Of a DNA stretch of 39,551 nucleotides, positions 1-39,014 are shown piece after piece. Source of the DNA: Flavobacteriaceae bacterium (GTDB taxonomy: Bacteria > Bacteroidota > Bacteroidia > Flavobacteriales > Flavobacteriaceae); contig JAKITY010000006.1 in the NCBI GenBank assembly GCA_021647835.1, positions 1 through 39,551 of the forward strand, given 5' to 3'. The number at the start of each line of letters is the position of its first letter. Within the stretch, counting starts at the first letter, position 1. A program made the position numbers and the translations under genes. The notes under the pieces are model-generated. The model was not told the origin of the DNA. It searched no databases and saw nothing but the letters and a program-made list of their open reading frames with translations.

Positions 1-66
1 TAACTCGCTAAAGATAAAAAATAGTATTGAAAAAATTACCAACTATTTTTGGCACCATTACCATTT
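1..66 (-). repeat. Left copy of a 65-bp inverted repeat, promoter-like
   Basis: The reverse complement of this stretch matches 38950-39014 along its whole length, with only one T gained or lost in a homopolymer. Read on the minus strand it has TTGG (42-39) and TATCTTTA (16-9) separated by 22 bases, close to the Bacteroidota promoter pattern TTG-N19-23-TAnnTTTG. It lies just beyond the terminator of the exb operon, so it probably begins the next minus-strand transcript, which leaves the window. The identity is seen directly; the promoter role is inferred. Confidence 0.8.
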
Positions 67-71
67 TGTGT

Positions 72-109
72 AAAAAACGGCAACCAAAATTTGATTGCCG
101 TTTTTTTTT
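72..109 (-). terminator. Terminator of the exb operon (bidirectional)
   Basis: Stem AAAAAACGGCAA (72-83) pairs with TTGCCGTTTTTT (95-106), and a T run follows on either strand. It lies just after the stop codon of the last exbD gene. Confidence 0.85.
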
Positions 110-124
110 AAATTTATAGAAACT

Positions 125-586
125 CTACTTATCAGTACCCTGACGCGTAGCGTAGGTAACTTTCAAAGCATTAATTTCTCTTAATTCCTTTTCAATATCA
201 TTGATAGTTCCAACTGTACTTTTCTCATCAGATTTTATTAATGTAGTCATAGCGCTTTGCTCATCTTGAGCAACTGCATCTCGGGCTGCATACATAAAAT
301 TTCTAATATCACCTACACTTGCTATCTTGTCATTTAACTGAATCTTATCACCATCACCATACTTTTTAGTATCTGTTGCTGGACCAACATAGATAGTGCT
401 TATCAAACGTTTCTCAGACAACTTCTTTATTTCAACTGCTGTTGGTAACTTTTGACTTACCAAAGGAGAAACTTCTCTCATGGTTGTAGCAACCATAAAA
501 AAGAACAACAACATAAATACAATATCTGGTAAAGAGGCTGTATTAATTGGTGGTAATCCTTTTTTCTTCTTTTTAAATTTAGACAT
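125..586 (-). CDS. exbD: Biopolymer transporter ExbD (second copy in operon)
   Basis: 153-residue inner-membrane protein of the ExbD/TolR family, part of the proton-driven motor that energises TonB-dependent outer-membrane uptake. A basic cytoplasmic N-terminus (KKKKK) is followed by one membrane helix at about residues 20-37 that carries Asp21. This is the family's proton-carrying aspartate, in the motif LPDIVFMLLFFFMV. The rest is a periplasmic domain. It is the last gene of an exbB / unknown / exbD / exbD operon, 17 bases after the preceding exbD, and a strong terminator follows. Paired, divergent ExbD proteins are normal in Flavobacteriaceae. The family call is secure; the substrate system it serves is not visible here. 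Confidence 0.93.
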   Translation of the reverse strand: MSKFKKKKKGLPPINTASLPDIVFMLLFFFMVATTMREVSPLVSQKLPTAVEIKKLSEKRLISTIYVGPATDTKKYGDGDKIQLNDKIASVGDIRNFMYAARDAVAQDEQSAMTTLIKSDEKSTVGTINDIEKELREINALKVTYATRQGTDK

Positions 587-603
587 TTTCGCTATACTTT
601 AAA

Positions 604-1245
604 TTATTTGTTTTCTGATTTTGTAATAATCTCAGGATACATCACTTTTATTTTCTTGATGTTATCTTTTAACCTCTGACTTGGCTCTACAAGGTTTTTT
701 TCTTCCTTAACCATTTCTGAATACGTTTTCCCAAACTCTTTCATCGCCAATCTATTTCTTAAGAAAATATAAGCCTTTCCTAATTCATCTTGAACCGCAA
801 TAAATGTACCCATTTCAGTACTTCTATCAGTCTTTATAGAAATAACTGCTTTGTTAGGATGGTCTGATGATTCTGGGTCTTTTCCCCCTTCACACCAAGA
901 GCATTCTGTACCTACAGACCCTAAAGGTTCTCCAAATAATTCAATAGGGTTTCCTATTTTCCCTCCATTATCAATAAAGTCAATAGCTAACTGTTTTATT
1001 TCGTTAACTTTTCTGTACTCATTCTCTACAAGTATTTCATTGTTCCTATTGATATTTATTTCAAAAACATTACGTTCCTTAATAATTGGCGGTGGTGGAG
1101 CATCTATTGGCAGTTTTTCTGGTAATCTTCTTGAGATACCAGCATCTACGTCCATCGTGGTTGTTACTAAGAAAAATATCAATAGTAAAAACGCGATATC
1201 TGCCATAGATCCTGCATTAATTTCTGGTGTTTCTCTTCTTGCCAT
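604..1245 (-). CDS. exbD: Biopolymer transporter ExbD (first copy, extended)
   Basis: 213-residue ExbD/TolR-family protein. The short N-terminus contains the helix motif SMADIAFLLLIFFLVTTTM with the conserved Asp16. The periplasmic part is longer than in the companion ExbD. It carries a Cys pair (TECSWCEGG) in an insertion around residues 113-125, absent from the second copy, that may form a disulfide. It shares the operon with the ExbB homologue and is separated from the upstream four-TM gene by 15 bases. The two ExbDs probably form a hetero-oligomer within one ExbB ring, by analogy with other multi-ExbD systems. The family call is firm; the disulfide is inference. Confidence 0.92.
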   Translation of the reverse strand: MARRETPEINAGSMADIAFLLLIFFLVTTTMDVDAGISRRLPEKLPIDAPPPPIIKERNVFEININRNNEILVENEYRKVNEIKQLAIDFIDNGGKIGNPIELFGEPLGSVGTECSWCEGGKDPESSDHPNKAVISIKTDRSTEMGTFIAVQDELGKAYIFLRNRLAMKEFGKTYSEMVKEEKNLVEPSQRLKDNIKKIKVMYPEIITKSENK

Positions 1246-1260
1246 AATTAATATTTGTTT

Positions 1261-1713
1261 TTATTTAGAAAACATTCCTTTTAAACCTCCCCAAACAATT
1301 GTTGCTAAAGTTATTGCACCTAATATATAGGTGTATTTTATCATTGCTCCAACTCTCTTAGGAATTATACCTTCAGAACCACCATCTTTTAAAACAGTAC
1401 CATAAGTATCTGTAACAGCATCACTGCTTGCAAGTGCATACGCTAAGAAGAATAAACCTCCTAAAACACCTAAACTAATTAGTGTTTGCTTTAATGCTCC
1501 TGGAGTTTTAAAAATTCCAATAACTGAAAAGAATACAGTAACTACTACCGTTAATCCTACAAGAATCATTGAAAATGAAATTAATGGATGTGTTGCGCTT
1601 GAAACTGCTTCTACATCATCTCCTGCCATTGCTACTCTAACAAATAGACCTATACCAATCAATGCAATTAGAGCTACAACAATTTTAACTATGTTATATA
1701 ATTTGCTATTCAT
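1261..1713 (-). CDS. Conserved four-TM protein of the exb operon, function unknown
   Basis: 150-residue hydrophobic protein with four predicted membrane helices, roughly at residues 8-28, 42-66, 75-95 and 127-146. It has no recognisable catalytic motif. It sits between exbB (9 bases upstream) and exbD (15 bases downstream), so it is almost certainly co-transcribed and translated with the motor. I recall hypothetical proteins at this position in other flavobacterial exb operons, but I do not recognise a named family. An accessory subunit of the ExbB/ExbD complex is the simplest guess; no sequence motif proves it. Confidence 0.85.
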   Translation of the reverse strand: MNSKLYNIVKIVVALIALIGIGLFVRVAMAGDDVEAVSSATHPLISFSMILVGLTVVVTVFFSVIGIFKTPGALKQTLISLGVLGGLFFLAYALASSDAVTDTYGTVLKDGGSEGIIPKRVGAMIKYTYILGAITLATIVWGGLKGMFSK

Positions 1714-1722
1714 GATTTTATT

Positions 1723-2454
1723 TTATTTGTTATGCTTAACTAATAAGTCTACTAAAGAAATAGATGCATCTTCCATATTGTTTACAATACTATCAACTTT
1801 TGCGATGATGTAATTATAAAAGATTTGTAAGATTATTGCAACAATTAGACCAAATACTGTTGTTAATAGTGCAATTTTAATACCACCTGCAACAGTTGCT
1901 GGGGACATTTCATTAGATACAGCAATATCATCAAAGGCTTTAATCATACCAATTACAGTTCCCATGAACCCAAGCATTGGTGCTAATGCAATAAATAAAG
2001 ATAGCCAAGAAATGTTTTTCTCTAACAATCCCATTTGAACTCCACCATAACCAACTACGGCTTTTTCAACTGATTCAATTCCATCATCTGAACGCATTAA
2101 ACCTTGATAAAAGATTGATGCAACAGGTCCTTTAGTGTTACGTGCAACTTCTTTTGCTGCTTCTACACCTCCTGATGCTAAAGCGTCTTCAATACCATCT
2201 ACTAATTTCTTAGTATTTGTAGATGCCATATTAAGGTAAATGATTCTTTCAATAGCAATTGCTAAACCTAATATTAAGGTAATTAATACAATTCCCATAA
2301 AACCTGCACCACCTTCAATAAAACGTTGCTTTAATTCTTGATGAAAAGTTTTGTCAACTTCTTCTGTTTGTGCTGCATCTTGTGCATGCATACTTTGAGT
2401 AGTTCCTAAAAACAATAAACCAGTGATTGCTAGGATAGTAAATAATTTTTTCAT
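1723..2454 (-). CDS. exbB: MotA/TolQ/ExbB proton-channel family protein
   Basis: 243-residue ExbB/TolQ homologue, the stator-type channel subunit that works with ExbD and TonB. A signal-like N-terminus (about residues 1-24, ending MHAQDA) is followed by a membrane helix at 50-70. A cytoplasmic segment comes next, then the paired helices of the MotA/ExbB domain with the motif MLGFMGTVIGMIKAFD and a final helix near 195-215. An N-terminal signal-like extension is common in Bacteroidota ExbB. It is the first gene of the minus-strand operon. The 72 bases upstream separate it from tRNA-Ser and hold only a weak TATATTTA element. The assignment is firm. Confidence 0.93.
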   Translation of the reverse strand: MKKLFTILAITGLLFLGTTQSMHAQDAAQTEEVDKTFHQELKQRFIEGGAGFMGIVLITLILGLAIAIERIIYLNMASTNTKKLVDGIEDALASGGVEAAKEVARNTKGPVASIFYQGLMRSDDGIESVEKAVVGYGGVQMGLLEKNISWLSLFIALAPMLGFMGTVIGMIKAFDDIAVSNEMSPATVAGGIKIALLTTVFGLIVAIILQIFYNYIIAKVDSIVNNMEDASISLVDLLVKHNK

Positions 2455-2526
2455 TGTGTAATAGTTAATTTAATTATTAGTTTACGGGTTAAATATATAA
2501 CTTTTTTTGCAAAAAAAAGAATTCAG

Positions 2527-2613
2527 CGGAGAGAAAGGGATTCGAACCCTTGATACAGTTTCCCATATACATGCTTTCCAAGCATGCGCCTTCGACCACT
2601 CGGCCACCTCTCC
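2527..2613 (-). tRNA. tRNA-Ser (anticodon GGA)
   Basis: 87-nt class II tRNA with a long variable arm. The acceptor strands are GGAGAGG and CTCTCC plus discriminator G. The T-loop is GGTTCGAATCC, and the anticodon GGA lies at 2579-2577 within CTTGGAAAG. CCA is not encoded. It stands alone between exbB and the asparaginase gene. The 179 bases beyond it (2614-2792) are AT-rich and show nothing I can name. Confidence 0.95.
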
Positions 2614-2792
2614 TAACTCTTTGCGAATGACAAGTAACAAAAAAATGTTGAAGTGCGAAAATTTAATTTTTTAAATCCTTATTTTTTTTATTCTTTCTAA
2701 TGAATTTTTACAGACAACCTATTTATTATCAATTTTTTAATGAAAATCTTTAAACTAATTTTTTTTCTTAAAAAAAACTAAAAGAAACTGGT

Positions 2793-3824
2793 TTAATTAG
2801 CCATTTCTCCTCTTAATGGTGTTTCAAAAACTTGTTTAAACTCTGCATCTGGAATTTTTTCACCTAATAGATACATCAATTTTGCTAAAGCAGCCTCAGT
2901 CGTGATGTCTTTTCCACTTATCAATCCTATTTTTTGAAGTTGTACACTTGTTTCATATTGCCCTAATATTACTTCTCCTCCTGAGCATTGTGTAACATCT
3001 ATAATTTTAATTCCTTTTTTCAGGATTTTTTTTAGCAAATCAACAAACCATTTGTCTGTTGGTGCATTTCCCGAACCGTAGGTTTCTAAAACAACTCCTT
3101 TTAAACCCTTTATCTCTAAAACACTTTTTACCACGTTTTCAGTAATTCCTGGAAACAACTTTAGCAAAACTATATTTTCTTCTATTTTTTTTCTAATTTT
3201 TATGTGTTTTGATTTTCTTGACCTATATAATAAGGTGTCATAAAATTTTAAATGGACGCCACTTTCTGCTAAATGTGGATAGTTGGGCGATGCAAATGCT
3301 TGAAAATGTTCGGCGTTTACTTTTGTAGTCCTATTTGCCCTATATAACTTGTATTCAAAATACAAACACACTTCTGAAATTATAGGTTTTCCATTTTTTT
3401 GTGCAGCAGCAATTTCTATAGAAGTAATCATATTTTCTTTGGCATCGGTTCGCAAATCTCCTATTGGCAGTTGAGAACCTGTAAAAATAACAGGTTTCGA
3501 TAGGTTTTCAAACATAAAACTAATTGCAGATGCAGTATAAGACATCGTATCAGAACCGTGAAGAATTACAAAACCGTCAAATTTTTCATAATTATTTTCA
3601 ATGATTTCTGTTATTTCTACCCAATATGTAGGGTTCATATTTGATGAGTCTATAGGTTCGTCAAAAGAAACGCTATCAATTGTACAGTTTAAATGCTTGA
3701 GTTCTGGAATATATTTTAGCAATTCATCAAAATTAAATGCTTTCAAAACGCCAGTTTCATAATCTTTCGCCATTCCTATAGTTCCGCCTGTATAAATTAA
3801 TAAAATATGAGGTGTTTTTGCCAT
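2793..3824 (-). CDS. ansA: Type I L-asparaginase
   Basis: 343-residue cytoplasmic asparaginase that hydrolyses L-asparagine to aspartate and ammonia. The N-terminal nucleophile motif YTGGTIGM places the catalytic Thr at residue 15. The second active-site block reads HGSDTMSYTASA (89-100), so Ser91 occupies the position of the usual second Thr. I believe this is a frequent variant in Bacteroidota. FTGSQLPIGDLRTDA follows as expected. No signal peptide is present and the length matches the type I family (about 340). It is transcribed alone and divergently from the zinc peptidase gene. The start is ATG at 3824. Confidence 0.93.
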   Translation of the reverse strand: MAKTPHILLIYTGGTIGMAKDYETGVLKAFNFDELLKYIPELKHLNCTIDSVSFDEPIDSSNMNPTYWVEITEIIENNYEKFDGFVILHGSDTMSYTASAISFMFENLSKPVIFTGSQLPIGDLRTDAKENMITSIEIAAAQKNGKPIISEVCLYFEYKLYRANRTTKVNAEHFQAFASPNYPHLAESGVHLKFYDTLLYRSRKSKHIKIRKKIEENIVLLKLFPGITENVVKSVLEIKGLKGVVLETYGSGNAPTDKWFVDLLKKILKKGIKIIDVTQCSGGEVILGQYETSVQLQKIGLISGKDITTEAALAKLMYLLGEKIPDAEFKQVFETPLRGEMAN

Positions 3825-3885
3825 TTTGTCGTACCTGTTTTTTTTGGAATAATTTATGCTATAAAACTAATAACAATTTTTTGAT

Positions 3886-3893
3886 TAACTTTG
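3886..3893 (+). promoter_or_regulatory. -7 element TAACTTTG of the zinc-peptidase gene
   Basis: TAACTTTG is a perfect match to the Bacteroidota -7 consensus TAnnTTTG, 21 bases before the ATG at 3915. I see no good -33 TTTG at standard spacing. Confidence 0.55.
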
Positions 3894-3914
3894 TAAAAAT
3901 AAAACTTTAAAATT

Positions 3915-4589
3915 ATGATGTTTGGATATGTAATATTTGGTGCAATTGCTTTGTTTGGTTGGTTAGTTCAATCGAGATTAAAAAGCAAATTTAAAAAATA
4001 CTCAAAATTAACGTTGCAAAACGGTTTGTCGGGAAGAGAAATTGCCGAAAAAATGTTGCAAGACAACAACGTTTATGATGTGAAAGTCATTTCGACTCCT
4101 GGGAGATTGACAGATCATTACAATCCAAAAGATAAAACGGTAAATTTAAGTGAATCTGTATATAATGAGCGAAATGCAGCAGCAGCAGCAGTTGCTGCGC
4201 ATGAAGTTGGACATGCGGTACAGCATGCAACTTCTTATTCTTGGTTACAATTTAGATCTAGTTTGGTGCCAATGGTAAATATTTCAAGTAAATTATCTAT
4301 GTGGATTATCATGGCTGGATTATTTATTCAATCATTTCCTATTTTACTTCCTGTAGGAATTGTATTATTCGCTGCAACAGTATTTTTCAGTTTTGTAACA
4401 TTACCTGTTGAATATGATGCGAGTAACAGAGCTTTGGTTTGGTTGAGCAATGAAAATATGCTTACAGATGAAGAACAAGCAGGCGCAAAAGATGCTTTGA
4501 AATGGGCTGCAAGAACTTATGTAGTTGCTGCGATTGGTGCGTTGGCAACCTTACTTTATTATGTAATGATTTATATGGGTAGAGATTAG
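3915..4589 (+). CDS. Membrane zinc metallopeptidase (Zn_peptidase_2 / YugP type)
   Basis: 224-residue integral membrane protease. An N-terminal helix covers residues 3-18. The metal-binding HEVGH motif is at 96-100, preceded by an alanine-rich stretch. Two central helices lie at about 122-138 and 142-160, followed by the family-typical LPVEYDASNRA motif (about 163-173) and a C-terminal helix near 202-220. This layout matches the YugP/DUF2265-like neutral zinc peptidases; the substrate is unknown. ATG codons stand at 3915 and 3918, and either could be used. It is monocistronic and reads towards the Lrp gene. Confidence 0.9.
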   Translation: MMFGYVIFGAIALFGWLVQSRLKSKFKKYSKLTLQNGLSGREIAEKMLQDNNVYDVKVISTPGRLTDHYNPKDKTVNLSESVYNERNAAAAAVAAHEVGHAVQHATSYSWLQFRSSLVPMVNISSKLSMWIIMAGLFIQSFPILLPVGIVLFAATVFFSFVTLPVEYDASNRALVWLSNENMLTDEEQAGAKDALKWAARTYVVAAIGALATLLYYVMIYMGRD

Positions 4590-4608
4590 GTTTGGCGAAG
4601 AAAGACAG

Positions 4609-4626
4609 TTTTTTCTGCGAGAATCT
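4609..4626. repeat. Copy of a short dispersed repeat
   Basis: This 18-base stretch (TTTTTTCTGCG followed by AGAATCT) matches the reverse complement of 33694-33711 at 16 of 18 positions. A second TCTGCGAAA follows at 4632-4640. Such CTGCG/CGCAG modules are scattered in the intergenic DNA of many Flavobacteria. Confidence 0.45.
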
Positions 4627-4667
4627 ATGTTGTCTGCGAAAAAAAATATGCGCAACTCAAACTCTGG

Positions 4668-5132
4668 CTACAGACTTATCTGTCTATCAATTTGTTGATC
4701 TAATGAAATAAAAGTTTCTGTTCGTGCAACACCTTTTATGGATTGAATTTCTTTATTGAGCAAGTTCATCAAATGTTCATTGTCTTTACATAGTATTTTG
4801 ATGAAAATAGCGTAATTTCCTGTTGTATAATGACTTTCTATCACTTCAGGAATTTCTTTCAATCGACTTATTGCTGCGGAATACTTACTTGCCGAATCTA
4901 AAAATATTCCGACAAAAGCCAATGTTTTATAACCTAAAACTTTAGGGTTTAATATAAATTTTGATCCTGTAATTAATCCTGAGGCTTCTAATTTTCGTAG
5001 TCGTTGATGAATTGCTGCTCCTGAAATACCAATTTCACGTGCAATACTCAAAATAGGTGTACGAGCATCAGCAATTAAATTTTTTAGAATTATTTTATCA
5101 ATCCCATCAATATGTAAGTCTTTTTTCTTCAT
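4668..5132 (-). CDS. Lrp/AsnC family transcriptional regulator
   Basis: 154-residue regulator of amino-acid metabolism type. An N-terminal winged helix-turn-helix (IDKIILKNLIADARTPILSI, then the recognition helix around GISGAAIHQRL) is followed by a RAM ligand-binding domain (about residues 70-150). I chose the ATG at 5132. An upstream in-frame ATG at 5174 lies inside the accC terminator hairpin and upstream of a perfect -7 element TATATTTG at 5157-5150. That promoter would give a short leader of about a dozen bases. The target genes are unknown. Confidence 0.9.
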   Translation of the reverse strand: MKKKDLHIDGIDKIILKNLIADARTPILSIAREIGISGAAIHQRLRKLEASGLITGSKFILNPKVLGYKTLAFVGIFLDSASKYSAAISRLKEIPEVIESHYTTGNYAIFIKILCKDNEHLMNLLNKEIQSIKGVARTETFISLDQQIDRQISL

Positions 5133-5163
5133 TACTGTAAACTTGAAATCAAATATAAAAAAT

Positions 5164-5189
5164 AAAGGATACAATTTTTTGTATCCTTT
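5164..5189 (-). terminator. accC terminator abutting the lrp promoter
   Basis: Perfect stem AAAGGATACAA / TTGTATCCTTT with a 4-base loop. On the minus strand it is followed by ATTTTTT. The T run touches the TATATTTG promoter element of the next gene (5157-5150). Confidence 0.85.
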
Positions 5190-5218
5190 TCTTATTTCTT
5201 ATAAAAACAAAATTATTT

Positions 5219-6568
5219 TTAATCTTCAATAGGTTTCATCACAAAATCTTCCATAAATTTTGTGGTATAATTTCCTGCCACATAATCTGGATGATCCATC
5301 AACTGACGGTGAAAAGGAATTGTAGTCTTTATTCCTTCAATATGAAACTCATCTAATGCACGTTTCATTTTATTGATTGCTTCTTCGCGAGTTTGCGCTG
5401 TTGTAATTAACTTTGCAATCATAGAATCGTAGTTTGGCGGAATACTATATCCTGCATATACGTGTGTATCTAAACGAACTCCGTGTCCTCCTGGAGCGTG
5501 TAAAACTTCAATTTTTCCAGGCGATGGGCGAAAATTATTGTATGGGTCTTCGGCATTAATTCTACATTCTATGGAGTGTAATTTTGGAATATAATTTTTT
5601 CCAGAAATTGGTACTCCTGAAGCAACCAAAATTTGTTCACGAATCAAATCAAAATCAATTACTTGTTCCGTAATTGGATGTTCTACTTGAATACGAGTAT
5701 TCATTTCCATAAAGTAAAAATTGCGATCTTTATCAACCAAAAACTCTACAGTTCCAGCTCCTTCGTACGCAATATATTCTGATGCTTTTACGGCTGCATC
5801 ACCCATTTTTTTACGAAGTGCTTTGGTCATAAATGGCGAAGGAACTTCTTCTGTCAATTTTTGATGACGGCGTTGAATAGAACAATCTCTTTCTGACAAA
5901 TGACATGCTTTTCCATACGAATCTCCAACAACCTGAATTTCAATATGGCGTGGCTCTACAATCAGTTTTTCCATGTACATTGTGTCATTATCAAAACATG
6001 CTTTGGCTTCTTGACGTGCATCGTCCCATCCTTTTTTCAAATTTTCTTTTTCCCAAACGGCACGCATTCCTTTTCCACCGCCGCCTGCAGTTGCTTTTAG
6101 CATTACTGGATAGCCCATTTTATCGGCTAATTTTTCGGCTTCTTCGTAGGTTTCTAAAATTCCGTCAGAACCTGGAACGCAAGGTACTCCTGCTTCTTCC
6201 ATAGTTGCTCTGGCAGATGCTTTGTCTCCCATTCTATTAATCATTTCGGGACTTGCTCCAATAAATTTAATGTTATGGTCTTCACAAATCTTTGAAAATT
6301 TAGCATTTTCAGATAAAAATCCATATCCCGGATGAATAGCATCTGCATTTGTTATTTCTGCTGCTGAGATGATATTAGACATTTTTAAATAGGACTCACT
6401 ACTTGGTGCAGGACCAATACATACTGCTTCATCGGCGAATTTAACGTGTAAACTATCGGTATCGGCAGTAGAATATACAGCGACTGTTTTAATTCCCATT
6501 TCTTTACACGTTCGTATAACACGCAGTGCTATTTCTCCTCTATTTGCTATTAATATTTTTTTAAACAT
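5219..6568 (-). CDS. accC: Biotin carboxylase subunit of acetyl-CoA carboxylase
   Basis: 449-residue biotin carboxylase, which carboxylates the biotin on AccB using ATP and bicarbonate, the first half-reaction of malonyl-CoA synthesis. It starts with the biotin-carboxylase signature [17 protein letters not shown]. The ATP-grasp glycine loop GGGGKGMR is at about 162-169. The metal and substrate motifs [16 protein letters not shown] and RINAED are present, and the length equals the E. coli enzyme. accB lies upstream, 78 bases away across a small repeat. fabH is further upstream, so the cluster joins malonyl-CoA supply with fatty-acid initiation. Confidence 0.96.
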
Positions 6569-6589
6569 AACTCTATAGAAATTATAAAT

Positions 6590-6645
6590 TACGAATTGCG
6601 AATTCAGAACTAAATTTTCTGAACACGAATTCTAAATTCTGAATT
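6590..6645. repeat. Palindromic AT-rich repeat between accB and accC
   Basis: Two inverted pairings share the same arms. AATTCAGAA (6601-6609) can pair with TTCTGAA (6617-6623) or with TTCTGAATT (6637-6645). ACGAATT occurs twice (6591, 6625). It resembles the common Flavobacteria ACGAATT intergenic repeats and fills the accB-accC gap. Confidence 0.55.
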
Positions 6646-6646
6646 A

Positions 6647-7120
6647 TTAAGAAGGATCAACTAAAAATAATGGCTGACCAAATTCTACTGGAGAAGACTC
6701 ATCTACTAATACTTTTACAATTTTACCTGAAACTTCTGATTCAATTTCATTAAATAACTTCATTGCTTCAATAATACATACTATGGTGTCTGGCTGAACA
6801 GCATCTCCGACTTCTGCAAAATTCGGCTTATCAGGAGATGGCTTTCTATAAAAAGTTCCAATAATTGGTGATGTAATTGTTATGTATTTTGAATCCTCCT
6901 CTTTCTCTGCATTAGATTCAGTAGGAGTCATTGCTGTTTGAACTGCTGGCGTTGCTATTACAGGTGCTTGTGCAACTGGTGCTTGATGTACAATCGTAGT
7001 TTCAGGAGTTCCTTTTCCAGTTTTAATTGTTATCTTAAAGTCTTCTACTTCAAGTTTAACTTCATTTACGCCTGATTTTGCGATAAACTTTATGAGGCTT
7101 TGAATTTCTTTTAAATCCAT
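6647..7120 (-). CDS. accB: Biotin carboxyl carrier protein of acetyl-CoA carboxylase
   Basis: 157-residue BCCP. The N-terminal domain (about residues 1-35) is followed by a flexible Ala/Pro/Thr-rich linker (about 36-75). The C-terminal biotinyl domain has the canonical EAMKL motif with biotinyl Lys121. It ends FGQPLFLVDPS, as BCCPs do. It lies 35 bases downstream of fabH and upstream of accC, on the same strand, and is probably co-transcribed with both. Confidence 0.96.
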   Translation of the reverse strand: MDLKEIQSLIKFIAKSGVNEVKLEVEDFKITIKTGKGTPETTIVHQAPVAQAPVIATPAVQTAMTPTESNAEKEEDSKYITITSPIIGTFYRKPSPDKPNFAEVGDAVQPDTIVCIIEAMKLFNEIESEVSGKIVKVLVDESSPVEFGQPLFLVDPS

Positions 7121-7155
7121 AAATAATATTTTTAGTTAGTAGTTTTTATAATTTT

Positions 7156-11076: not shown

Positions 11077-11150
11077 TGGTCCCACAAGGGCTCGAACCTT
11101 GGACCCCCTGATTATGAGTCAGGTGCTCTAACCAGCTGAGCTATGGGACC
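11077..11150 (-). tRNA. tRNA with CAT anticodon (elongator Met or Ile2)
   Basis: 74-nt cloverleaf with acceptor GGTCCCA/TGGGACC and discriminator A. The D-arm is AGCTCAGCTGGTTAGAGC, the anticodon loop CTCATAA (CAT at 11116-11114), and the T-arm GGTTCGAGCC. CCA is not encoded. It lacks initiator features (a mismatched first pair and three G-C pairs in the anticodon stem), so it is not tRNA-fMet. Elongator Met and lysidine-modified Ile cannot be separated by eye. Confidence 0.93.
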
Positions 11151-31442: not shown

Positions 31443-31445
31443 AAC

Positions 31446-32648
31446 TTGAATTTTCCACTGTACATTGCAAAACGTTATTTGTTTTCAAAAAGCAGTAATA
31501 ACACCATAAATATTATTACAATTATTGCTACAATTGGTGTTATTATTGGTACAATGGCATTATTTATTGTTCTTTCCGGATTTTCTGGATTAAAAACATT
31601 CAGTATAAATTTCTTAAAAACTTCTGACCCTGATTTTAAAATATCAGCAATAAAAGGAAAAACTATCGAGTTTTCTGAAAGTATAAAGTCTAAAATTGAA
31701 GAAGTTAATGGTATTGCTCATTACACCAAGGTGATTGAAGAACGTGCTTTTTTTGATTTTAAGAACAAAACACATCTTGCATATATAAAAGGCGTAGAGG
31801 AAAATTTTCTAAAGATAAATAACATCGACACTGCAATTGTTGTTGGTAATTGGATTGATTTTAACTTTACCAACAATGCAGTTATTGGAAACGGAATTTC
31901 TAACAAACTTTCGATGGGAATTAACGACTATCTTGAACCACTAAAAATCTATGTTCCAAAAGCAGGAAGCGGTTATGTAGAAAGTATTAAAAAAGATGTA
32001 AATGCTATTTATACACAGCCTACAGGTATATTTATGCTCAATGAAGAACTCGATAAAAAGTATGTTTTTATTCCGATAGCACTTGCACAACAATTATTGA
32101 GTTATTTGCCTAATCAAATTAGTGCGATCGAAGTAAAAGTTGACAACCTTGACGATAGAGAAAATACTATCGAAAATCTACAAAAAACACTTGGAAATAA
32201 TTATAAAATTCAAACAAGAGAACAACTAAATGCTGTTTTTTATAAGATGCTAAACACCGAAAACTTGGCTTCATATCTTATTTTTACACTAATTTTAATC
32301 ATTGCTTTATTTAATGTTATTGGTGCATTGATTATGATGATATTTGACAAAAAAAGCAATTTAAAAACACTTTATAATTTAGGTACAACAATAAAAGAAA
32401 TCAGAAAAATATTTGTTTTACAAGGTTTTTTACTCTCCTTTTTTGGATTGATATTTGGACTAACGCTCGCAATAATATTGGTATTCGTTCAACAACGTTT
32501 TGGCTTTTTTATGATTACGAAATCGCTTGCTTTTCCAATAGAATTTCAACTATTTAATGTAATTGTAGTCTTTTTTACAATTCTTGTTTTGGGTTATATC
32601 GCTTCGTTAATTGCGAGTAGTAGGATTACTAAAGAGGCTCTAGAGTAA
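31446..32648 (+). CDS. ABC transporter permease, LolC/LolE-like (FtsX domain)
   Basis: 400-residue inner-membrane permease of the lipoprotein-releasing or MacB-like class. The N-terminal motif YIAKRYLFSKSSNNTINIIT is the standard LolC/E start. TM1 lies at about 22-46, then a large periplasmic domain (about 50-265), then three helices (about 270-293, 318-345, 365-388). The FtsX loop reads DKKSNLKTLYNLGTTIKEIR. The start is TTG at 31446, three bases after rbfA, an uncommon but well-supported start. The ATPase subunit is not in the window. Lipoprotein sorting is likely, not proven. Confidence 0.9.
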   Translation: MNFPLYIAKRYLFSKSSNNTINIITIIATIGVIIGTMALFIVLSGFSGLKTFSINFLKTSDPDFKISAIKGKTIEFSESIKSKIEEVNGIAHYTKVIEERAFFDFKNKTHLAYIKGVEENFLKINNIDTAIVVGNWIDFNFTNNAVIGNGISNKLSMGINDYLEPLKIYVPKAGSGYVESIKKDVNAIYTQPTGIFMLNEELDKKYVFIPIALAQQLLSYLPNQISAIEVKVDNLDDRENTIENLQKTLGNNYKIQTREQLNAVFYKMLNTENLASYLIFTLILIIALFNVIGALIMMIFDKKSNLKTLYNLGTTIKEIRKIFVLQGFLLSFFGLIFGLTLAIILVFVQQRFGFFMITKSLAFPIEFQLFNVIVVFFTILVLGYIASLIASSRITKEALE

Positions 32649-32661
32649 GGTACCTAAAGAA

Positions 32662-33642
32662 TCACCCAAACTTCTGTAATACTTCATCCAAAACATCATA
32701 TACATCTTGTGCAGAGTCTGAAGTAACCATTTTAAGCCTATAAGGTTTAAAATTAGGAATTCCTTTAAAATAATTGGTGTAATGACGTCTTGTTTCCATT
32801 ACGCCAACAATCTCAACTTCTTTCCATGCAATTTCCATTTCAAGATGTCTTTTTGCCATTGCAACTCTATCTGCAATAGAAATTTCTGGTAAGTGTTCTT
32901 CTGTTTCAAAAAAATGTTTTACCTGCTTAAAAAACCAAGGGTTACCTATACTTGCTCGTCCAATCATGGCACCGTCTAATCCGTATTTATCACGCATTTC
33001 TACGGCTCTTTCAGGTGTATTTACATCTCCATTTCCAAAAACAGGAATGTGCATTCTTGGATTATTTTTTACCTCAGCAATTGGTTTCCAATCAGCATCT
33101 CCTTTATACATTTGTGCGCGTGTACGACCGTGAATAGCAATTGCTTTACAACCAACATCTTGAATTCTTTCGGCAACCTCAACAATTTTTATTGAATCAT
33201 GATCCCAACCTAAACGCGTTTTTACAGTAATTGGCAAATCTGTATGTTTTACCATTGCTTCAGTCAAAGAAACCATTAAATCGATGTCTTTTAATATTCC
33301 TGCACCTGCGCCTTTCGACACTACTTTTTTCACAGGACAGCCAAAATTAATATCAATAATATCTGGTTTCGATTGCTCTACAATTTCAATTGTACGCAAC
33401 ATAGAATCGAGGTTTGCTCCAAAAATTTGTATTCCTACAGGACGCTCTTTTTCATAAATATCCAACTTTTTTATGCTCTTTGCAGCATCACGAATCAAGC
33501 CTTCTGAAGAAATAAACTCGGTATATACAACATCTGCGCCTTGCTCTTTACACAATGCTCTAAATGGTGGGTCACTTACATCTTCCATTGGCGCAAGTAG
33601 TAATGGAAAGTCGGGTAACTCTATGTCGCCTATTTTTATCAA
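32662..33642 (-). CDS. dusB: tRNA-dihydrouridine synthase (DusB family)
   Basis: 326-residue flavoenzyme that reduces specific uridines in tRNA D-loops. It has a TIM-barrel with the N-terminal LLAPMEDVSDPPFRALC. The active-site Cys is in INFGCPVKKVVSKGAGAGIL, FMN/substrate residues lie in ITVKTRLGWD and AIHGRTRAQMYKG, and FGNGDV is followed by GAMIGRASIGNPW. The start is TTG at 33642, which gives the expected N-terminus. It is convergent with the permease gene, 13 bases apart. The upstream spacer is a patchwork of repeats. Confidence 0.94.
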   Translation of the reverse strand: MIKIGDIELPDFPLLLAPMEDVSDPPFRALCKEQGADVVYTEFISSEGLIRDAAKSIKKLDIYEKERPVGIQIFGANLDSMLRTIEIVEQSKPDIIDINFGCPVKKVVSKGAGAGILKDIDLMVSLTEAMVKHTDLPITVKTRLGWDHDSIKIVEVAERIQDVGCKAIAIHGRTRAQMYKGDADWKPIAEVKNNPRMHIPVFGNGDVNTPERAVEMRDKYGLDGAMIGRASIGNPWFFKQVKHFFETEEHLPEISIADRVAMAKRHLEMEIAWKEVEIVGVMETRRHYTNYFKGIPNFKPYRLKMVTSDSAQDVYDVLDEVLQKFG

Positions 33643-33758
33643 TGTTTTGGGTTTTCAGTTGGCAGTGTTCAGCATCTTTATTTTTCTTCCCGCAGATTTA
33701 CGCAGAAAAAATTAGCGAAAATCAGCAATATCTTCGGGAAATGTTAGCAGAGTCAAAT
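33643..33758. repeat. Composite of degenerate dispersed repeats
   Basis: The dusB/M28 spacer joins two modules I recall from many Flavobacteria. One is a TTTTCAGTTGGCAGTGTTCAG stretch near 33651-33671. The other is a CCCGCAGATTTACGCAGAA block (33689-33707), followed by TTAGCGAAAATCAGC. The second module has a diverged inverted copy at 4609-4626. No coding sense. Confidence 0.5.
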
Positions 33759-34985
33759 CTAAAAAGTAACGTTTAGCGCTACTTCTTTTCCATCGCGAAT
33801 GATAATCACTTTTATTGTTGCTCCTTTTTCAAATTTAGATAAAGACTTTACATAATCCATCATTGAATTTACTTCAATATCACCCATTTTCACAACAACA
33901 TCACCTTTTTTTATTCCTGCTTTATGTGCTGATTTCTCTTCTGTAACACCACTAATTTGCATTCCTTTTCCATCAAATAAATAATCGGGAACAACACCTA
34001 AGGTTACTTTAAAACCTGCGCCTTTTTTAGTTTCATTTTTGGTCTTCGTAAATGTTAATTTTGCATCATCATCTAAATCAGAAATAATAGCAAAAAGATA
34101 TTCAGAAATTAAATTCATCCCTTCATAATTCAGCAAATCTGTATCGTCTGTAGGCTTGTGATAATCTTCGTGTTGTCCTGTAAAAAAGTGTAATACAGGG
34201 ATATCAGCTAAATAAAAACTTGTGTGATCTGAAGGTCCAACTCCAGATTCTTTTAAAACTAAACGAAATTTATTTTTAGGGTCTTCTTCTAATGTTTTTT
34301 TGAATATTGGAGATGTTCCAACGCCATAAACGGCCAAAGCACTATCCTTTTTCAATCTTCCAACCATATCCATATTTACCATATAATTAACCGATTTCAG
34401 GTCAATTGTAGGGTTTTTTACAAAATAATTAGAACCCAATAAGCCCATTTCTTCAGCAGAAAAAGCCATAAATAAATAGTTGTTTTGAGTGTTTTTATTT
34501 TTCAACTTACTAGCCAAATTTAAAAGTACTGCAATTCCACTAGCGTTGTCATCTGCGCCATTGTGAATTTGCTTTTCTTCGCCTCTATACAACGAACCTT
34601 CACCTCCATAACCTAAATGGTCGTAATGCGCTCCAATAATAATTGTTTTATCGGCTTTATTGTCAAGATATCCAATTATATTGTTTCCTGTAATTGTTCC
34701 GTCTATATTTTCTGTAAATTTTACCTCTTCATGCGGATGCGATTTAGGCTTAAAAGAAAATGGCTGTAAGAAATTTGCCGTTCCTTTCGGTTCTAAGCCT
34801 AATTCTTTAAAGCGTTTTGAAATGTAATCTGCCGCTTTTTTTTCGCCTTCAGTTCCTGTTTGTCTTCCTTCTAATTTGTCATCAGCCAAGAAAGAAACAT
34901 CTTCTTTAATTTTGTTTTCTGGTTTGTACTCCTCTTTACATCCGAATAGCGATATAAAAATTATTAATAGCGATACTTTCTTCAT
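33759..34985 (-). CDS. M28-family aminopeptidase lipoprotein with PDZ domain
   Basis: 408-residue lipid-anchored zinc exopeptidase. Signal and lipobox are IIFISLFGCKEEYK (Cys at about residue 15). The M28 zinc ligands are IIGAHYDHLGYGG, NGADDNASGIAVLL, SAEEMGLLGSN, NMDMVGRL and the late SDHTSF-LADIPVLHFFTG. A PDZ domain follows (about residues 318-405, with GKGMQISGVTEEKSAHKAG). The ATG at 34985 begins the signal peptide; the in-frame ATG at 35030 would start within the divergent promoter. It is divergent from the propeller lipoprotein. Confidence 0.93.
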   Translation of the reverse strand: MKKVSLLIIFISLFGCKEEYKPENKIKEDVSFLADDKLEGRQTGTEGEKKAADYISKRFKELGLEPKGTANFLQPFSFKPKSHPHEEVKFTENIDGTITGNNIIGYLDNKADKTIIIGAHYDHLGYGGEGSLYRGEEKQIHNGADDNASGIAVLLNLASKLKNKNTQNNYLFMAFSAEEMGLLGSNYFVKNPTIDLKSVNYMVNMDMVGRLKKDSALAVYGVGTSPIFKKTLEEDPKNKFRLVLKESGVGPSDHTSFYLADIPVLHFFTGQHEDYHKPTDDTDLLNYEGMNLISEYLFAIISDLDDDAKLTFTKTKNETKKGAGFKVTLGVVPDYLFDGKGMQISGVTEEKSAHKAGIKKGDVVVKMGDIEVNSMMDYVKSLSKFEKGATIKVIIIRDGKEVALNVTF

Positions 34986-34996
34986 CTTATATGTCT

Positions 34997-35014
34997 TAGT
35001 TTTGCACAAAACTA
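34997..35014. promoter_or_regulatory. Palindromic overlapping divergent promoters
   Basis: TAGTTTTG on the plus strand (34997-35004) and TAGTTTTG on the minus strand (35014-35007) form an inverted repeat with two bases between. Each is a perfect TAnnTTTG. Transcripts starting 5-7 bases later would begin inside the opposite element. Confidence 0.6.
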
Positions 35015-35030
35015 CTAATAAAATCAACAA

Positions 35031-36140
35031 ATGAAATATATTTATTCGCTTTTTTTTATAACGTTACTTTTTTCTTGTAAAACTGAAAAAAAAGATTCGC
35101 AAAACGAAGATGCTGTTGCTGGAGCAACAAAAATTGTAAACGAGACACACTATCCGCAAGAGAAACATTTAAAAAACATCAAGCAGTTGACCTTTGGAGG
35201 CGATAATGCGGAAGCTTATTGGAGTTTTGATGGTAAAAAACTTGTTTTTCAGGCTTCCAACCATTGGGATTTAGAATGTGACCAAATTTTTGTTATGAAT
35301 GCTGATGAAATTTTACCAGAAGGAAAAGTTCCGCAAATGGTAAGCACAGGAAAAGGACGTACAACCTGTAGTTATTTTCTTCCAGGCGATGCTACAATTG
35401 TATATTCATCTACACATTTGGGCGATGAGACTTGTCCAATAGTTCCTAAAAAAGAAGATTTTGGAGGGAAATATATTTGGCCTGTTTATGATACATTCGA
35501 TATTTTTGTTGCTGATACTAAAGGAAACCAACTAAAACAATTGACTTTTGAAAAAGGCTACGATGCTGAACCAACTGTTTCGCCAAAAGGTGATAAAATT
35601 GTATTTACCTCTACTCGATCTGGAGATTTAGAACTTTATACAATGAATATTGATGGCTCTGATGTAAAACAAATCACCTTTGAATTAGGTTATGACGGAG
35701 GCGCATTCTTTTCTCCAGACGGCACAAAAATAGTCTTTAGATCTTCTCGCCCTAAAACGGAGAAAGACATTAAAGAGTATAAAGATTTATTAGCACAAGG
35801 ATTGGTAATGCCAACCTATATGGAAATATATGTGTGTAATGTTGATGGAAGTGATTTACAAAAAATTACCGATTTAGGAGGTGCAAATTGGGCGCCATTT
35901 TTTCATCCAAGTGGAAAGAAAATTATCTTCTCAACCAATCATCACAAAGAAAAACATGATGGGTTTAATCTATTTATGATAGATATTGATGGTAAAAATT
36001 TGGAACAAATCACTTTTGATGGTGTTTTTGACGCATTCCCAATGTTTTCTCCTGATGGAACAAAATTAGTTTTCTCTTCTAACCGTAATAATGGTGGAGG
36101 AAAAGACACAAACCTTTTTACTGCTGAATGGGTAGATTAA
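35031..36140 (+). CDS. PD40/TolB-like beta-propeller lipoprotein
   Basis: 369-residue exported protein. Signal and lipobox are SLFFITLLFSCKTEKK (Cys at about residue 16). Repeated PD40 blades follow, with motifs such as AYWSFDGKKLVFQ, PTVSPKGDKIVFTSTRSGD, AFFSPDGTKIVFRSSR, PFFHPSGKKIIFSTNHH and PMFSPDGTKLVFSSNR. Five or six blades are visible. TolB-type propellers bind proteins or peptides. The divergent M28 peptidase suggests a joint role in peptide handling, by context only. It ends before a terminator shared with the DUF998 gene. Confidence 0.92.
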   Translation: MKYIYSLFFITLLFSCKTEKKDSQNEDAVAGATKIVNETHYPQEKHLKNIKQLTFGGDNAEAYWSFDGKKLVFQASNHWDLECDQIFVMNADEILPEGKVPQMVSTGKGRTTCSYFLPGDATIVYSSTHLGDETCPIVPKKEDFGGKYIWPVYDTFDIFVADTKGNQLKQLTFEKGYDAEPTVSPKGDKIVFTSTRSGDLELYTMNIDGSDVKQITFELGYDGGAFFSPDGTKIVFRSSRPKTEKDIKEYKDLLAQGLVMPTYMEIYVCNVDGSDLQKITDLGGANWAPFFHPSGKKIIFSTNHHKEKHDGFNLFMIDIDGKNLEQITFDGVFDAFPMFSPDGTKLVFSSNRNNGGGKDTNLFTAEWVD

Positions 36141-36143
36141 GCG

Positions 36144-36180
36144 AAAATCAAGGTTCTATATAAAAGACCTCATGATTTTT
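36144..36180. terminator. Terminator between convergent genes
   Basis: Arms AAAATCA-AGGT and ACCT-(CA)-TGATTTT with a small bulge. A T run follows on the plus strand. Confidence 0.6.
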
Positions 36181-36185
36181 AAAAT

Positions 36186-36815
36186 TTATGAAGTTTTTTG
36201 ATTTCTTATTAAAATTGATAGAACAACAATACTTATAATAAAAGAGATTTCTATAATTCGTTGGTATAACCCTATAAAATGTGAAGTTAAATTTGTAAGT
36301 AAAATGCCTACAAATAAAACTGAAATACTTCCAAAAATAATAATCACTTGAGGTGTTTTTTTATAACTTTCTAGTTTTTGTAATCCAACACCAATTAATA
36401 AAAGACTTATAGGCACAAATAGATAAGTAAGCATTCCCGTTAAATTATGTATTATCTGTGAAATACTTGGCGTAACTAATTCGCTTCCGCAACCAGAATC
36501 ACATGGAAATAGTCCAACGATTATTGTTCCTATTCCATAAAAAACACCAAGTCCAATAAAACCAGTTTTAATTAATTTTGATTTAGGAAGTTTTTTAAAT
36601 CCAACAAAAGAAAAAATTGCTATTAAAATACCACTTGGAATATAACCGAAATAACGAAAAATCTTTCCGTAAGGAGTATCAATAGCCATTGACTCACTAA
36701 TAAACTGAGACATTTGATTATAATCATCAAACTGAAAACCTCCTAAAATTGAAGCAAGTCCAAAAAAGGTTACTCCAAATATTCCAATCAAATAAACGGT
36801 TTTGTTATTCATCAT
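36186..36815 (-). CDS. DUF998 family membrane protein
   Basis: 209-residue protein with about six membrane helices (roughly 7-24, 54-71, 84-102, 124-146, 156-174, 184-203). The central motif GLFPCDSGC is the DUF998 hallmark, preceded by GIGTIIVG and followed by a histidine in the next helix (QIIHNLTGM). Adjacent ATG codons at 36815 and 36812 are both usable. The function of DUF998 is unknown. The gene stands alone with 317 non-coding bases upstream that contain REP-like hairpins, so a recent arrival is possible. Confidence 0.88.
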   Translation of the reverse strand: MMNNKTVYLIGIFGVTFFGLASILGGFQFDDYNQMSQFISESMAIDTPYGKIFRYFGYIPSGILIAIFSFVGFKKLPKSKLIKTGFIGLGVFYGIGTIIVGLFPCDSGCGSELVTPSISQIIHNLTGMLTYLFVPISLLLIGVGLQKLESYKKTPQVIIIFGSISVLFVGILLTNLTSHFIGLYQRIIEISFIISIVVLSILIRNQKTS

Positions 36816-36963
36816 TTGTTTATTGGTCCCAAATGGAGTTAAAACTATGTACTTTAGTGCATCTCGCTTTAGCTTCTAAAAATTTTATTCAGTTTCGTTA
36901 AAAGAAAATTGAGTTCAGAAATGATTTTTTATCTCCAATTTTCATTCGAGTAATCACGTATTG

Positions 36964-37008
36964 CTGACTTTAGTCAGATTTAAAAACCTATGGACTTGTA
37001 GTCCATAG
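36964..37008. repeat. REP-like pair of hairpins
   Basis: CTGACT-TT-AGTCAG (36964-36977) and CTATGGACT-TGT-AGTCCATAG (36988-37008) are two short perfect palindromes 10 bases apart. They lie in the 317-base gap between the DUF998 gene and lepA. This spacing and the GGACT/AGTCC core resemble REP elements mobilised by Y1-type (RAYT/IS200-like) transposases. No such transposase is in the window. The rest of the gap (36816-36960) is AT-rich and shows only a weak AAAATTG/CCAATTTT pairing. Confidence 0.6.
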
Positions 37009-37078
37009 TGGTTTAGTTATTAGAGACGATTAAGACGTTGTTTTGTAACTTTTAAAGTGATAATGTTCCTGCAATCAA

Positions 37079-37111
37079 TTGCAAATAACTCCTATTAATA
37101 AGGTATATTTG
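37079..37111 (+). promoter_or_regulatory. lepA promoter
   Basis: TTG (37079-37081), 22 bases, then a perfect -7 TATATTTG (37104-37111), with the lepA ATG 21 bases further. Confidence 0.7.
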
Positions 37112-37132
37112 CAAACTGAACGAAGATATAGG

Positions 37133-38929
37133 ATGAAGCACATTAGAAATTTTTGCATAATTGCACATATTGATCACGGAAAAAGTACACTTGCCGATAG
37201 ATTACTCGAATTTACAGGAACGATAACGGATAGAGAAAAGAAAGATCAGTTATTAGATACAATGGATTTGGAACGTGAACGTGGAATTACTATAAAATCG
37301 CACGCCATTCAAATGGAATATACTTTTGAAGGTCAAGAATATGTTTTAAACCTTATTGATACTCCTGGACACGTAGATTTTTCTTATGAAGTCTCTCGTT
37401 CTATTGCTGCTTGCGAAGGCGCACTTTTAATTGTTGATGCAGCACAAAGTATTCAAGCGCAAACCATTTCTAATTTATATTTAGCCTTAGAAAACGATTT
37501 AGAAATAATTCCTATTTTAAATAAAGTAGATTTACCAAGCGCCAATCCAGAAGAAGTTACAGATGATATTGTAGATTTATTGGGTTGCGATCCAGAAGAG
37601 GTAATTCATGCAAGTGGAAAAACAGGCTTTGGAATTGATGCCATTTTAGAAGCAGTTATAAAAAGAGTTCCTGCTCCAAAAGGCGATGTAAATGCGCCCT
37701 TACAAGCCCTAATTTTTGATTCGGTTTACAATACTTTTAGAGGAATTGAAACGTATTTTAGAGTTTTTAATGGCGAAATAAAAAAAGGGCAACGTATTAA
37801 ATTCGTTGCAACAGATAACGAATATTTTGCTGATGAAGTTGGGACATTAAAGTTAGAACAAGTTGCAAAACAATCAGTAAAAGCAGGAGATGTTGGTTAC
37901 CTTATTACAGGAATAAAAACTGCAAAAGAAGTAAAAGTTGGAGATACTATTACTGATGCAAAAACTCCTACAACCAATATAGTAGAAGGTTTTGAAGATG
38001 TAAAACCAATGGTTTTTGCAGGGATTTATCCTGTGGACACCGAAGATTATGAGGAATTGCGAAATTCTATGGAAAAATTGCAATTAAATGATGCTTCCTT
38101 AGTTTTTCAGCCAGAAAGTTCGGCTGCATTAGGTTTTGGTTTTCGTTGTGGATTTTTAGGAATGCTACATATGGAAATCATCCAAGAGCGTTTGGAACGT
38201 GAATTTAATATGACCGTAATTACAACGGTTCCCAATGTTTCATATCATGCGTTTACCAATAAAAATCCAGATGAAGCATTTATCTTAAACAATCCTTCGG
38301 ATTTACCAGATCCATCGACTCTTAATAGAATTGAAGAACCGTTTATCAAAGCATCTATTATTACAAAAGCCGACTTTGTTGGAAATGTAATGTCTTTATG
38401 TATTGAAAAACGTGGAATGATAACCAATCAGACCTATTTAACAACCCAACGTGTAGAATTAACATTCGATATGCCTTTGGCAGAAATTGTTTTTGATTTT
38501 TATGATAGATTAAAAACCGTTTCTAAAGGATATGCTTCGTTTGATTATTCACCAATTGGAATGAGAGAATCGAAATTGGTGCGTTTAGATATTTTATTAA
38601 ATGGAAATTCTGTAGATGCGCTTTCTGCTCTTATTCATGCTGATAATGCACAGAATATTGGTAAAAAAATGTGTGTAAAGTTAAAAGAATTGATACCAAG
38701 ACAACAATTTGACATTCCAATTCAAGCAGCAATTGGCGCAAAAATTATTTCTCGTGAAACCATTAAAGCACTTCGAAAAGATGTAACTGCAAAATGTTAC
38801 GGAGGAGATATTTCTCGTAAAAGAAAATTGCTTGAAAAACAGAAAAAAGGGAAAAAACGTATGCGCCAAGTAGGAAATGTAGAGATTCCTCAACAAGCAT
38901 TTATGGCTGTTTTAAAGTTAAACGACTAA
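37133..38929 (+). CDS. lepA: Elongation factor 4 (ribosomal back-translocase LepA)
   Basis: 598-residue translational GTPase that acts on stalled or maturing ribosomes. It begins [20 protein letters not shown] (G1), followed by ERGITIK (G2), DTPGHVDF (G3) and NKVDLPSA (G4). EF-G-like domains and the LepA-specific C-terminus with [20 protein letters not shown] follow. The ATG at 37133 gives the canonical start. An in-frame ATT/ATA-rich extension upstream (from 37079) overlaps the promoter and is not translated. No gene follows on the same strand, only the repeated promoter-like sequence. Confidence 0.97.
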
Positions 38930-38949
38930 TTTATAAACTTAATTACAAT

Positions 38950-39014
38950 AAATGGTAATGGTGCCAAAAATAGTTGGTAATTTTTTCAATACTATTTTTA
39001 TCTTTAGCGAGTTA
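38950..39014 (+). repeat. Right copy of the 65-bp inverted repeat, promoter-like
   Basis: Inverted copy of 1-66 with a single-base length difference. It contains TTGG (38974-38977), 21 bases, then TATCTTTA (38999-39006), ending right at the predicted transcription start of the candidate RNA. Conservation of exactly the promoter interval at both sites supports a duplicated transcription unit. Confidence 0.8.

Follow-up and report, generated by a model that had tools for sequence, protein, structure and literature searches.

An Insertion Sequence End That Probably Carries a Structured RNA Module Common to Several Insertion Sequence Families of Bacteroidota

Introduction

A sequence of 65 bp lies in inverted orientation at both ends of contig JAKITY010000006.1 of a Flavobacteriaceae bacterium (assembly GCA_021647835.1), following the exb operon on the left and lepA on the right, and it raises the question of what kind of element is present there twice. 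The stretch analyzed here, called the window, is this one entire contig of 39,551 bp (G000:C114, where G, C and L numbers denote genomes, contigs and loci); its nearest lepA relatives likewise indicate Flavobacteriaceae. An earlier note had read the repeat as a promoter in front of a duplicated RNA or gene, and had added that such a pair could invert the 39 kb between its copies. Our comparisons suggest that the repeat belongs to an insertion sequence (IS), and that this IS end very probably carries a structured RNA module which is common to several IS families.

Results

The inverted copies were recovered at 1-66 (100%, E 1e-28) and 38950-39014 (98%, E 2.6e-26), and their sole mismatch inside the 65 bp is a homopolymer, A6 (16-21) against T5 (38995-38999), just as the earlier note had described them; an inverted-repeat search returned 57 nt at 96%, with 38.9 kb separating the copies. 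The promoter-like pair noticed in the repeat is present as well, with TTGG at 38974-38977, TATCTTTA at 38999-39006 and 21 nt between them. As for the number of copies in the genome, the 2.03-Mb, 115-contig assembly (69% complete) contains just these two matches at E ≤ 0.001, not many, and the stretch 39010-39160 has no second strong copy in it (next-best match E 0.04). Base 1 of the window is a contig end, which cuts the left copy 5 nt into the RNA core described below.

The part of the repeat adjoining exb and lepA is an IS terminal inverted repeat, GGTAATGGTGCCAAAAATAGTTGGT, found by exact pattern match at 38954-38978 (plus strand) and 38-62 (minus strand). The shared element therefore starts at 38954 and 62, and the identity of the outer 'AAAT' beyond these positions would be due to chance or to an AT-rich target choice. 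The right copy is an IS remnant (38954-39415) composed of the right end, the RNA module and the 3' end of a truncated transposase gene (39145-39415, minus strand), whose stop codon lies at 39145-39147 and whose reading frame is uninterrupted as far as 39423. What remains of the gene is its final ~89 codons, and this minus-strand frame encodes ...NSIESFFGHMKGHLNIHRGLS... The remnant matched NF048019 (IS256 Zn-variant, E 2e-11) and NF033544 (IS1249, E 3e-8); the former match covers profile positions 226-299 of 304, near the C-terminal end, and falls below the 150-bit whole-protein cut-off, as expected of a fragment, and a complete relative (L201) scored 152.7 bits against the same cut-off. The closest proteins in the plasmid collection were two transposases of Emticicia oligotrophica DSM 17448 (59.5% and 55.7% identity), and both ends of the Emticicia plasmid elements (L176 and L177, 1287 and 1289 bp) are close variants of the window terminal repeat. 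In a third complete element, G501:C3 (L190), each end carries a variant of the terminal repeat, and there is a duplication of 8 bp, TTAATTTT. Among the relatives labelled 'A', target duplications measure 8 bp in L190 and L207, 7 bp in L177 and 6 bp in L176, and none was seen in L201 and L204. In eight of nine IS256 Zn-variant 'A' loci, the window included, 136-140 nt separate the end of the transposase frame from the start of the RNA. Judged by these comparisons, the 65 bp repeated in inverted orientation represent the right end of an IS from Bacteroidota, of the IS256 Zn-variant/IS1249-like kind and present twice; only the right end occurs in the window, which lacks the left ends. Most short matches to the 65 bp within the genus look by eye like chance matches in coding sequence, and those in L005 and L008 resemble the terminal repeat.

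One IS end thus follows the exb operon terminator, and another follows lepA. The left copy (1-62, minus strand) is cut by the contig end, its terminal repeat occupying 38-62 and its bases 1-5 being the first 5 nt of the RNA core. The host flank beside it (63-70) comes right after the exbD terminator hairpin, which is like that of the relatives, and the sequence beyond differs from nine relatives. These nine genus relatives were inspected at each site, and none has the repeat after exbD or lepA, two of them being readable for less than 120 nt past exbD, where their contigs end. The exbD terminator is followed by the same gene start in six of the nine (outer-membrane-protein-like, by eye). Contigs of relatives also stop just past exbD, near the place of the window's end, at G005:C5:1-110 and G003:C58:1-57. 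The distance from exbD to lepA is 29-47 kb in the five relatives with both genes on one contig (G001, G002, G005, G006, and G013), so that the DNA between the copies is ordinary chromosome and not transposon cargo.

These observations bear on two other explanations of the pair. The left copy might be an assembly artefact, produced by an erroneous inverted join where the contig stops, and the contig indeed ends inside the left repeat in a fragmented genome that is 69% complete. However, the left copy cleanly follows the exbD terminator where relatives carry other sequence, it shows a one-base difference of its own and is flanked by different sequence, and contig ends within 400 nt of the RNA are common elsewhere (16 of the 83 distinct loci introduced below), as expected of a multicopy IS; an artefact is therefore very improbable. 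The second explanation is that of the earlier note, in which a host promoter precedes a duplicated host RNA or gene and the two copies could invert the 39 kb. The inverted and near-identical copies speak for it, and the promoter-like pair does point into an RNA that is conserved in other genomes; what was duplicated, however, is an IS end and not a host RNA or gene, as indicated by the transposase remnant, the terminal repeats and the IS relatives. With the empty sites in relatives added to these features, host-gene duplication is ruled out, and we accord this explanation next to no probability. A 39-kb inversion between the copies is conceivable only in the general sense in which it is for every inverted pair of ISs. 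Taken alone, the 65-bp repeat is nothing unusual, and the RNA module is the part deserving attention.

A structured RNA is predicted at 39010-39144, with the promoter-like pair (38974-39006, plus strand) pointing into its start. The noncoding stretch of ~190 bp from the terminal repeat to the transposase stop is conserved in five elements (the window, the two from Emticicia, the one in G501 and a solo end in G590), and their folds contain the same stacked helices. A covariance model, R1, was built from these five copies, R2 being the second model. The core occupies 39010-39071 (plus strand, 62 nt; 75.8 bits, E 7e-16), and comprises the helices P1 (39013-39018/39062-39067), P2 (39028-39032/39049-39053) and P3 (39036-39039/39044-39047) with the tetraloop GAGG at 39040-39043. 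When the five copies are compared, both partners have changed in 12 of the 17 pairs (18 cells, against a mean of 6.8 in shuffled data; 0/500 shuffles).

The search with R1 covered 395 genomes of the window's class (inferred to be Bacteroidia), and 59 of them matched at E ≤ 0.01, including G000, G501, and G590, which had supplied training copies; 28 of the 59 had more than one match, several at contig ends. The loci examined are a chosen part of these matches. Out of 87 matches, 79 were oriented and used; repeat copies (L236, L241, L283, L285, L286, and L233:4348-4409) were left out, and two 16-bit matches (L204:1333 and L233:4180), both of which did enter model R2, were also dropped from the counts. 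Six matches from a phylum-wide draw were added later, giving 83 distinct loci. A further 90 stretches (0.84 Mb: 80 lepA loci, 8 genus stretches and 2 Emticicia loci) returned the two Emticicia copies, and every other match in them had an E of 0.54 or worse. BLAST of the RNA consensus against plasmids and phages gave no match, and its 42-nt version only matches of E 0.5 or worse, which were taken as chance. Viral contigs contained no transposase relative and no match to the RNA pattern, and one terminal-repeat pattern match there had neither transposase nor RNA.

Covariation was evaluated on a larger set of copies. Alignment A4 held 74 of the 79 copies, leaving out four near-duplicates (L229, L240, L271, and L274), one poor match (L250b) and the six added loci. 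On a MAFFT alignment made from sequence only (74 copies), 83.9% of the cells were paired, the double changes numbered 341 and the score was 0.552, the corresponding values for shuffled data being 63.8%, 131 and 0.200; slid-partner controls scored 0.194 at most. Kinship alone can beat shuffles, but the slid controls keep kinship and drop. Pairing on this alignment was 71% in P1, the weaker helix, 92% in P2 and 98% in P3. The model-fitted alignment, which leans to its own structure, gave 92.4% paired cells and 362 double changes, and since the copies were found with a structure model, some lean towards the structure remains in either case. While the helices vary, the loops are nearly constant save for two classes, and 65 of the 77 distinct copies have GGAG (46) or GAGG (19) as their tetraloop. 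The idea that the core encodes a small peptide was rejected: the two Emticicia copies agree over a run of 33 nt, with no silent substitutions, and neither a start nor a stop is common to the frame (a reading, not a computed test).

Regarding the carriers, a transposase gene was convergent with the RNA in 34 of the 83 loci, upstream on the same strand in 7 and downstream in 1, recognition having used ten representatives drawn from the same 83 loci. The module usually occupies the interval from the IS end to the stop codon of the transposase, and its direction is towards the transposase gene. According to NCBIfam, the carriers are IS256 Zn-variant/IS1249 (L201, L218, and L255), IS256 (L271), IS481 (L287), IS3 (L219, L231, L243, L246, and L251), IS110 (L227, L279, L289, and L290) and, once, IS30, in a downstream position (L217). 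Cross-matches link IS256 with its Zn variant and IS3 with IS481, and thus three transposase groups were counted. Target duplications of 8 or 9 bp were found outside the RNA-bearing element in 7 of 17 laid-out elements (L190, L207, L247, L255, L261, L265, and L271), read by eye and with some ends set a few bases beyond the aligned repeat. Two IS3 copies can be aligned from end to end with the RNA included (91.7% over 1542 columns), and for IS481 a whole-element alignment of the same kind spans 1166 columns. On the basis of such duplications or whole-element alignments, the predicted RNA lies inside IS256- and IS3/IS481-type elements. For the IS110-type loci, a common outer boundary near CTTCTATGTTGTAATC is found beyond the RNA in L279, L289, L290, and L212, and L227 is without it; this boundary suggests that the RNA may lie inside IS110 as well, on weaker evidence than for IS3/IS481, and an IS110 that had merely landed next to the RNA is the other possible reading. 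One genome has two IS256 Zn-variant elements, L181 (G125:C232) and L178 (G125:C238), one with the RNA (51.7 bits, R2) and the other without. Beside the RNA-bearing IS3 of L219, elsewhere in that locus, an Rfam group II intron match stands just above threshold (2108-2184, minus strand). The RNA was also seen without a transposase match in L223 and in L250 (a 3479-bp contig with two RNA copies), beside a plasmid-replication-protein-like gene (by eye).

Omega RNAs are structured RNAs encoded at an IS end. The same can be said of the bridge RNA of IS110 (PMC11208160), and four of our loci adjoin recombinase genes of that bridge-RNA-using family, so a guide RNA for transposition or DNA targeting was considered. 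In contrast to those systems, no variable guide-like segment was seen in the core, its loops are conserved across IS families, and most recognized carriers are not IS110; at the IS110 loci, moreover, the core ends 257-312 nt from the recombinase frame, and a separate bridge RNA could fit between. A guide function is therefore highly unlikely.

Downstream of the core, a two-tier hairpin (P4, 39076-39121, plus strand; z -6.0) contains a T6 run in its 3' side and is terminator-like. In 54 linkers, taken from loci with a motif-like match further downstream, P4 had z < -2 in 51 and a T-run of at least four in its 3' half in 45, it was more stable on the RNA strand in 49 and less in 4, and at least four pairs close outside the T-run in 32. 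ISs often carry terminators near their ends, and P4 with its T-run would suit a DNA-level or transcription-insulating device only (a terminator or a transposase-binding subterminal region), with the RNA itself inert. However, a P1-P3 core with conserved loops and covarying helices is superfluous for a terminator, this core is common to different transposases with different terminal repeats, and P4 folds better on the RNA strand; we regard a pure insulator as rather improbable.

Further downstream, a conserved 3' motif, ATGGCTAATAAAAAC, lies at 39130-39144 (plus strand). Its consensus is ATG(G/C)CTnArAAAACyCA, and 45 of 70 downstream regions contain the strict pattern, compared with 106 of 3400 random stretches. 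The first six letters are complementary to AG(C/G)xAT in the core, an internal-loop strand; in the window, these are ATGGCT at 39130-39135 and AGCGAT at 39055-39060. The main variable motif-core pair matches in 46 of 49 loci (C-G 13, G-C 29, U-A 1, G-U 3) against 27.2 in shuffled data (0/5000). Nevertheless, the fourth position pairs in only 4 of 49, and the pairing rests mainly on one covarying position, which largely separates two classes. Since the other positions were for the most part set by the search pattern itself, and since 21 of the 70 loci, being off-pattern, were left out of the count, the motif and the core segment form a candidate pseudoknot only.

The remaining features concern the surroundings of the two IS ends. 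The right remnant is interrupted, within its transposase gene, by the end of a second multicopy element (39416-39551; boundary by eye), inside which the contig stops. The end of this element (AGTTTTTAGAGATGCCCT) recurs near other contig ends of the window genome (C109, C105, C58, C69, C92, and C70), and short matches to it were found at similar places in C48, C27, C54, C76, C4, and C37; its interior in L172-L174 resembles what we take to be the start of an IS5-type transposase. In the same genome, G000:C94:8317-contig end (L196) contains a left IS end with the terminal repeat GGTTTAATAGTCAAAAATAGTTGGT, followed by a zinc-ribbon transposase start resembling IS1595 (by eye), and L196 and the window IS have the inner repeat CAAAAATAGTTGGT in common. 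The left ends of L190, L195, L196, and L207 contain a long hairpin and then a T-rich stretch (e.g., AGTCAATTGAAAACGGTTTCAATTGACTTTTTT) just inside the left terminal repeat, which are possibly a guard against read-through. The window also contains two tRNA genes, at 2527-2613 and 11077-11150, both on the minus strand.

Discussion

The predicted RNA module is new to Rfam and belongs to the IS-borne RNAs, a known kind. No family of Rfam 15 reached its gathering threshold at the RNA, either in the window or in 39 loci (L196, among these, is without an RNA copy), and the best score at the window RNA was that of STnc370, 23.1 bits against a threshold of 54. To our knowledge, known IS-borne RNAs serve one IS (RNA-OUT, Asr9/Ssr9) or guide one nuclease or recombinase. 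We found no such RNA described in a literature coverage without most subscription papers, preprints and supplements. The available parts of structured-RNA surveys (PMC2864571, PMC11109978) and of a work on Mutator-type transposases (PMC3942029) describe no such RNA, and in the report of the Flavobacterium psychrophilum transcriptome, with 85 new RNAs, the word transposase is absent from the main text (PMC9723704). The MRSC-65-2-type mobile or repeat motifs are likewise multicopy structured motifs, sometimes near transposases, in the available main text of their survey; here the motif is inside ISs of several families and has promoter- and terminator-like parts, a comparison with that main text only, so that overlap is possible (PMC11109978).

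The closest known IS is the IS256 Zn-variant (NF048019)/IS1249 (NF033544), with which our elements share the transposase profile; three complete relatives of 1.27-1.29 kb have both terminal repeats, and two loci (L190, L207) show 8-bp duplications. They differ in that the window copy is a remnant and that the RNA module is unmentioned in the family models used. ISPpu9 also encodes small RNAs, Asr9 and Ssr9, with one of them downstream of the transposase gene and with copies away from the IS; there, in contrast, Ssr9 lies on the transposase strand, Asr9 is complementary to the 5' untranslated region, and both belong to one IS, whereas here one RNA is found in several IS families (PMC8450116).

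What does the RNA do? IS10 RNA-OUT and the IS200 antisense RNA are IS-borne regulators of transposition, which pair with the start of the transposase messenger RNA. An RNA-OUT-like antisense action, in which the RNA pairs with the transposase message and blocks its translation or destabilizes it, is in line with the convergent orientation in 34 of the 42 loci with a recognized transposase gene, and with the position of the 3' motif, at or inside the transposase stop region in many loci (by eye). However, the RNA overlaps the message at its 3' end and not at its start. Unlike those two RNAs, no cognate pairing with the transposase 5' region was found here: it was not preferred across 18 full ISs (ranks 1 to 18, mean 9 of 18, in a rough energy test with composition not corrected). 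Furthermore, seven loci lie on the transposase strand, which makes a purely convergent logic incomplete, and the loops, expected to vary with the target, are the most constant part. Antisense control is thus unlikely, although it deserves to be kept in view.

A trans-acting, IS-borne small RNA is the most likely reading. It would be transcribed as ~110 nt, ending at the T-run of P4, or as ~135-145 nt, through the motif, and it would act through one conserved host partner, not by pairing with a particular target gene. Varying helices with nearly constant loops leave no guide stretch evident in the core and lead one to expect one conserved partner; with GGAG or GAGG as the predominant tetraloop, the ribosomal anti-Shine-Dalgarno sequence or an RNA-binding protein would be the natural candidate. 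We tentatively propose that the RNA may hold down transposase output or otherwise tune transposition of its carrier IS.

Several observations weigh against a general, functional RNA module of this kind. First, with regard to the carriers, 25 of the 83 loci have no nearby transposase match and 16 reach a contig end within 400 nt; 10 of the 17 laid-out elements show no target duplication; only two of the four IS256 Zn-variant elements found transposase-first in 395 family genomes carry the RNA, and two non-Bacteroidota transposase relatives are without it. Moreover, the window's own IS is a remnant, so its copy may be inactive. Second, no more than 9 of the 353 genomes in the phylum-wide draw matched R2 at E ≤ 0.001, and five of these (G565, G597, G670, G722, and G733) had not been among the earlier 59. 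Third, the pair was called promoter-like by what we take to be the Bacteroidota promoter consensus, and a strict -7 match within 14 nt of the core is present in 31 of 76 loci (random 113/3950), a -7 match plus TTG at -33 spacing in only 6 of 76 (random 29/3950). Finally, core energies barely favor the RNA strand (28 of 54 lower, 23 higher), and the G.U against A.C counts, 74 to 42, were taken on an alignment fitted to that strand.

These findings would have consequences beyond the window. RNA-bearing ISs may explain contig breaks in metagenome assemblies of these bacteria, and the analysis yields a covariance model and dozens of copies, some with defined IS boundaries, together with the plasmid-borne pair of Emticicia oligotrophica DSM 17448. 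It is quite conceivable, if a little short of probable, that one RNA class in at least five named families and three transposase groups (IS256 with its Zn variant, IS3 with IS481, and IS110) acts in trans across Bacteroidota via one host partner, so that ISs of differing chemistry have in common an RNA-based means of control, or of protection, through which they can influence each other. If this is true, transposons would exchange a regulatory RNA as a module, and a common host step that many transposons must touch would be indicated.

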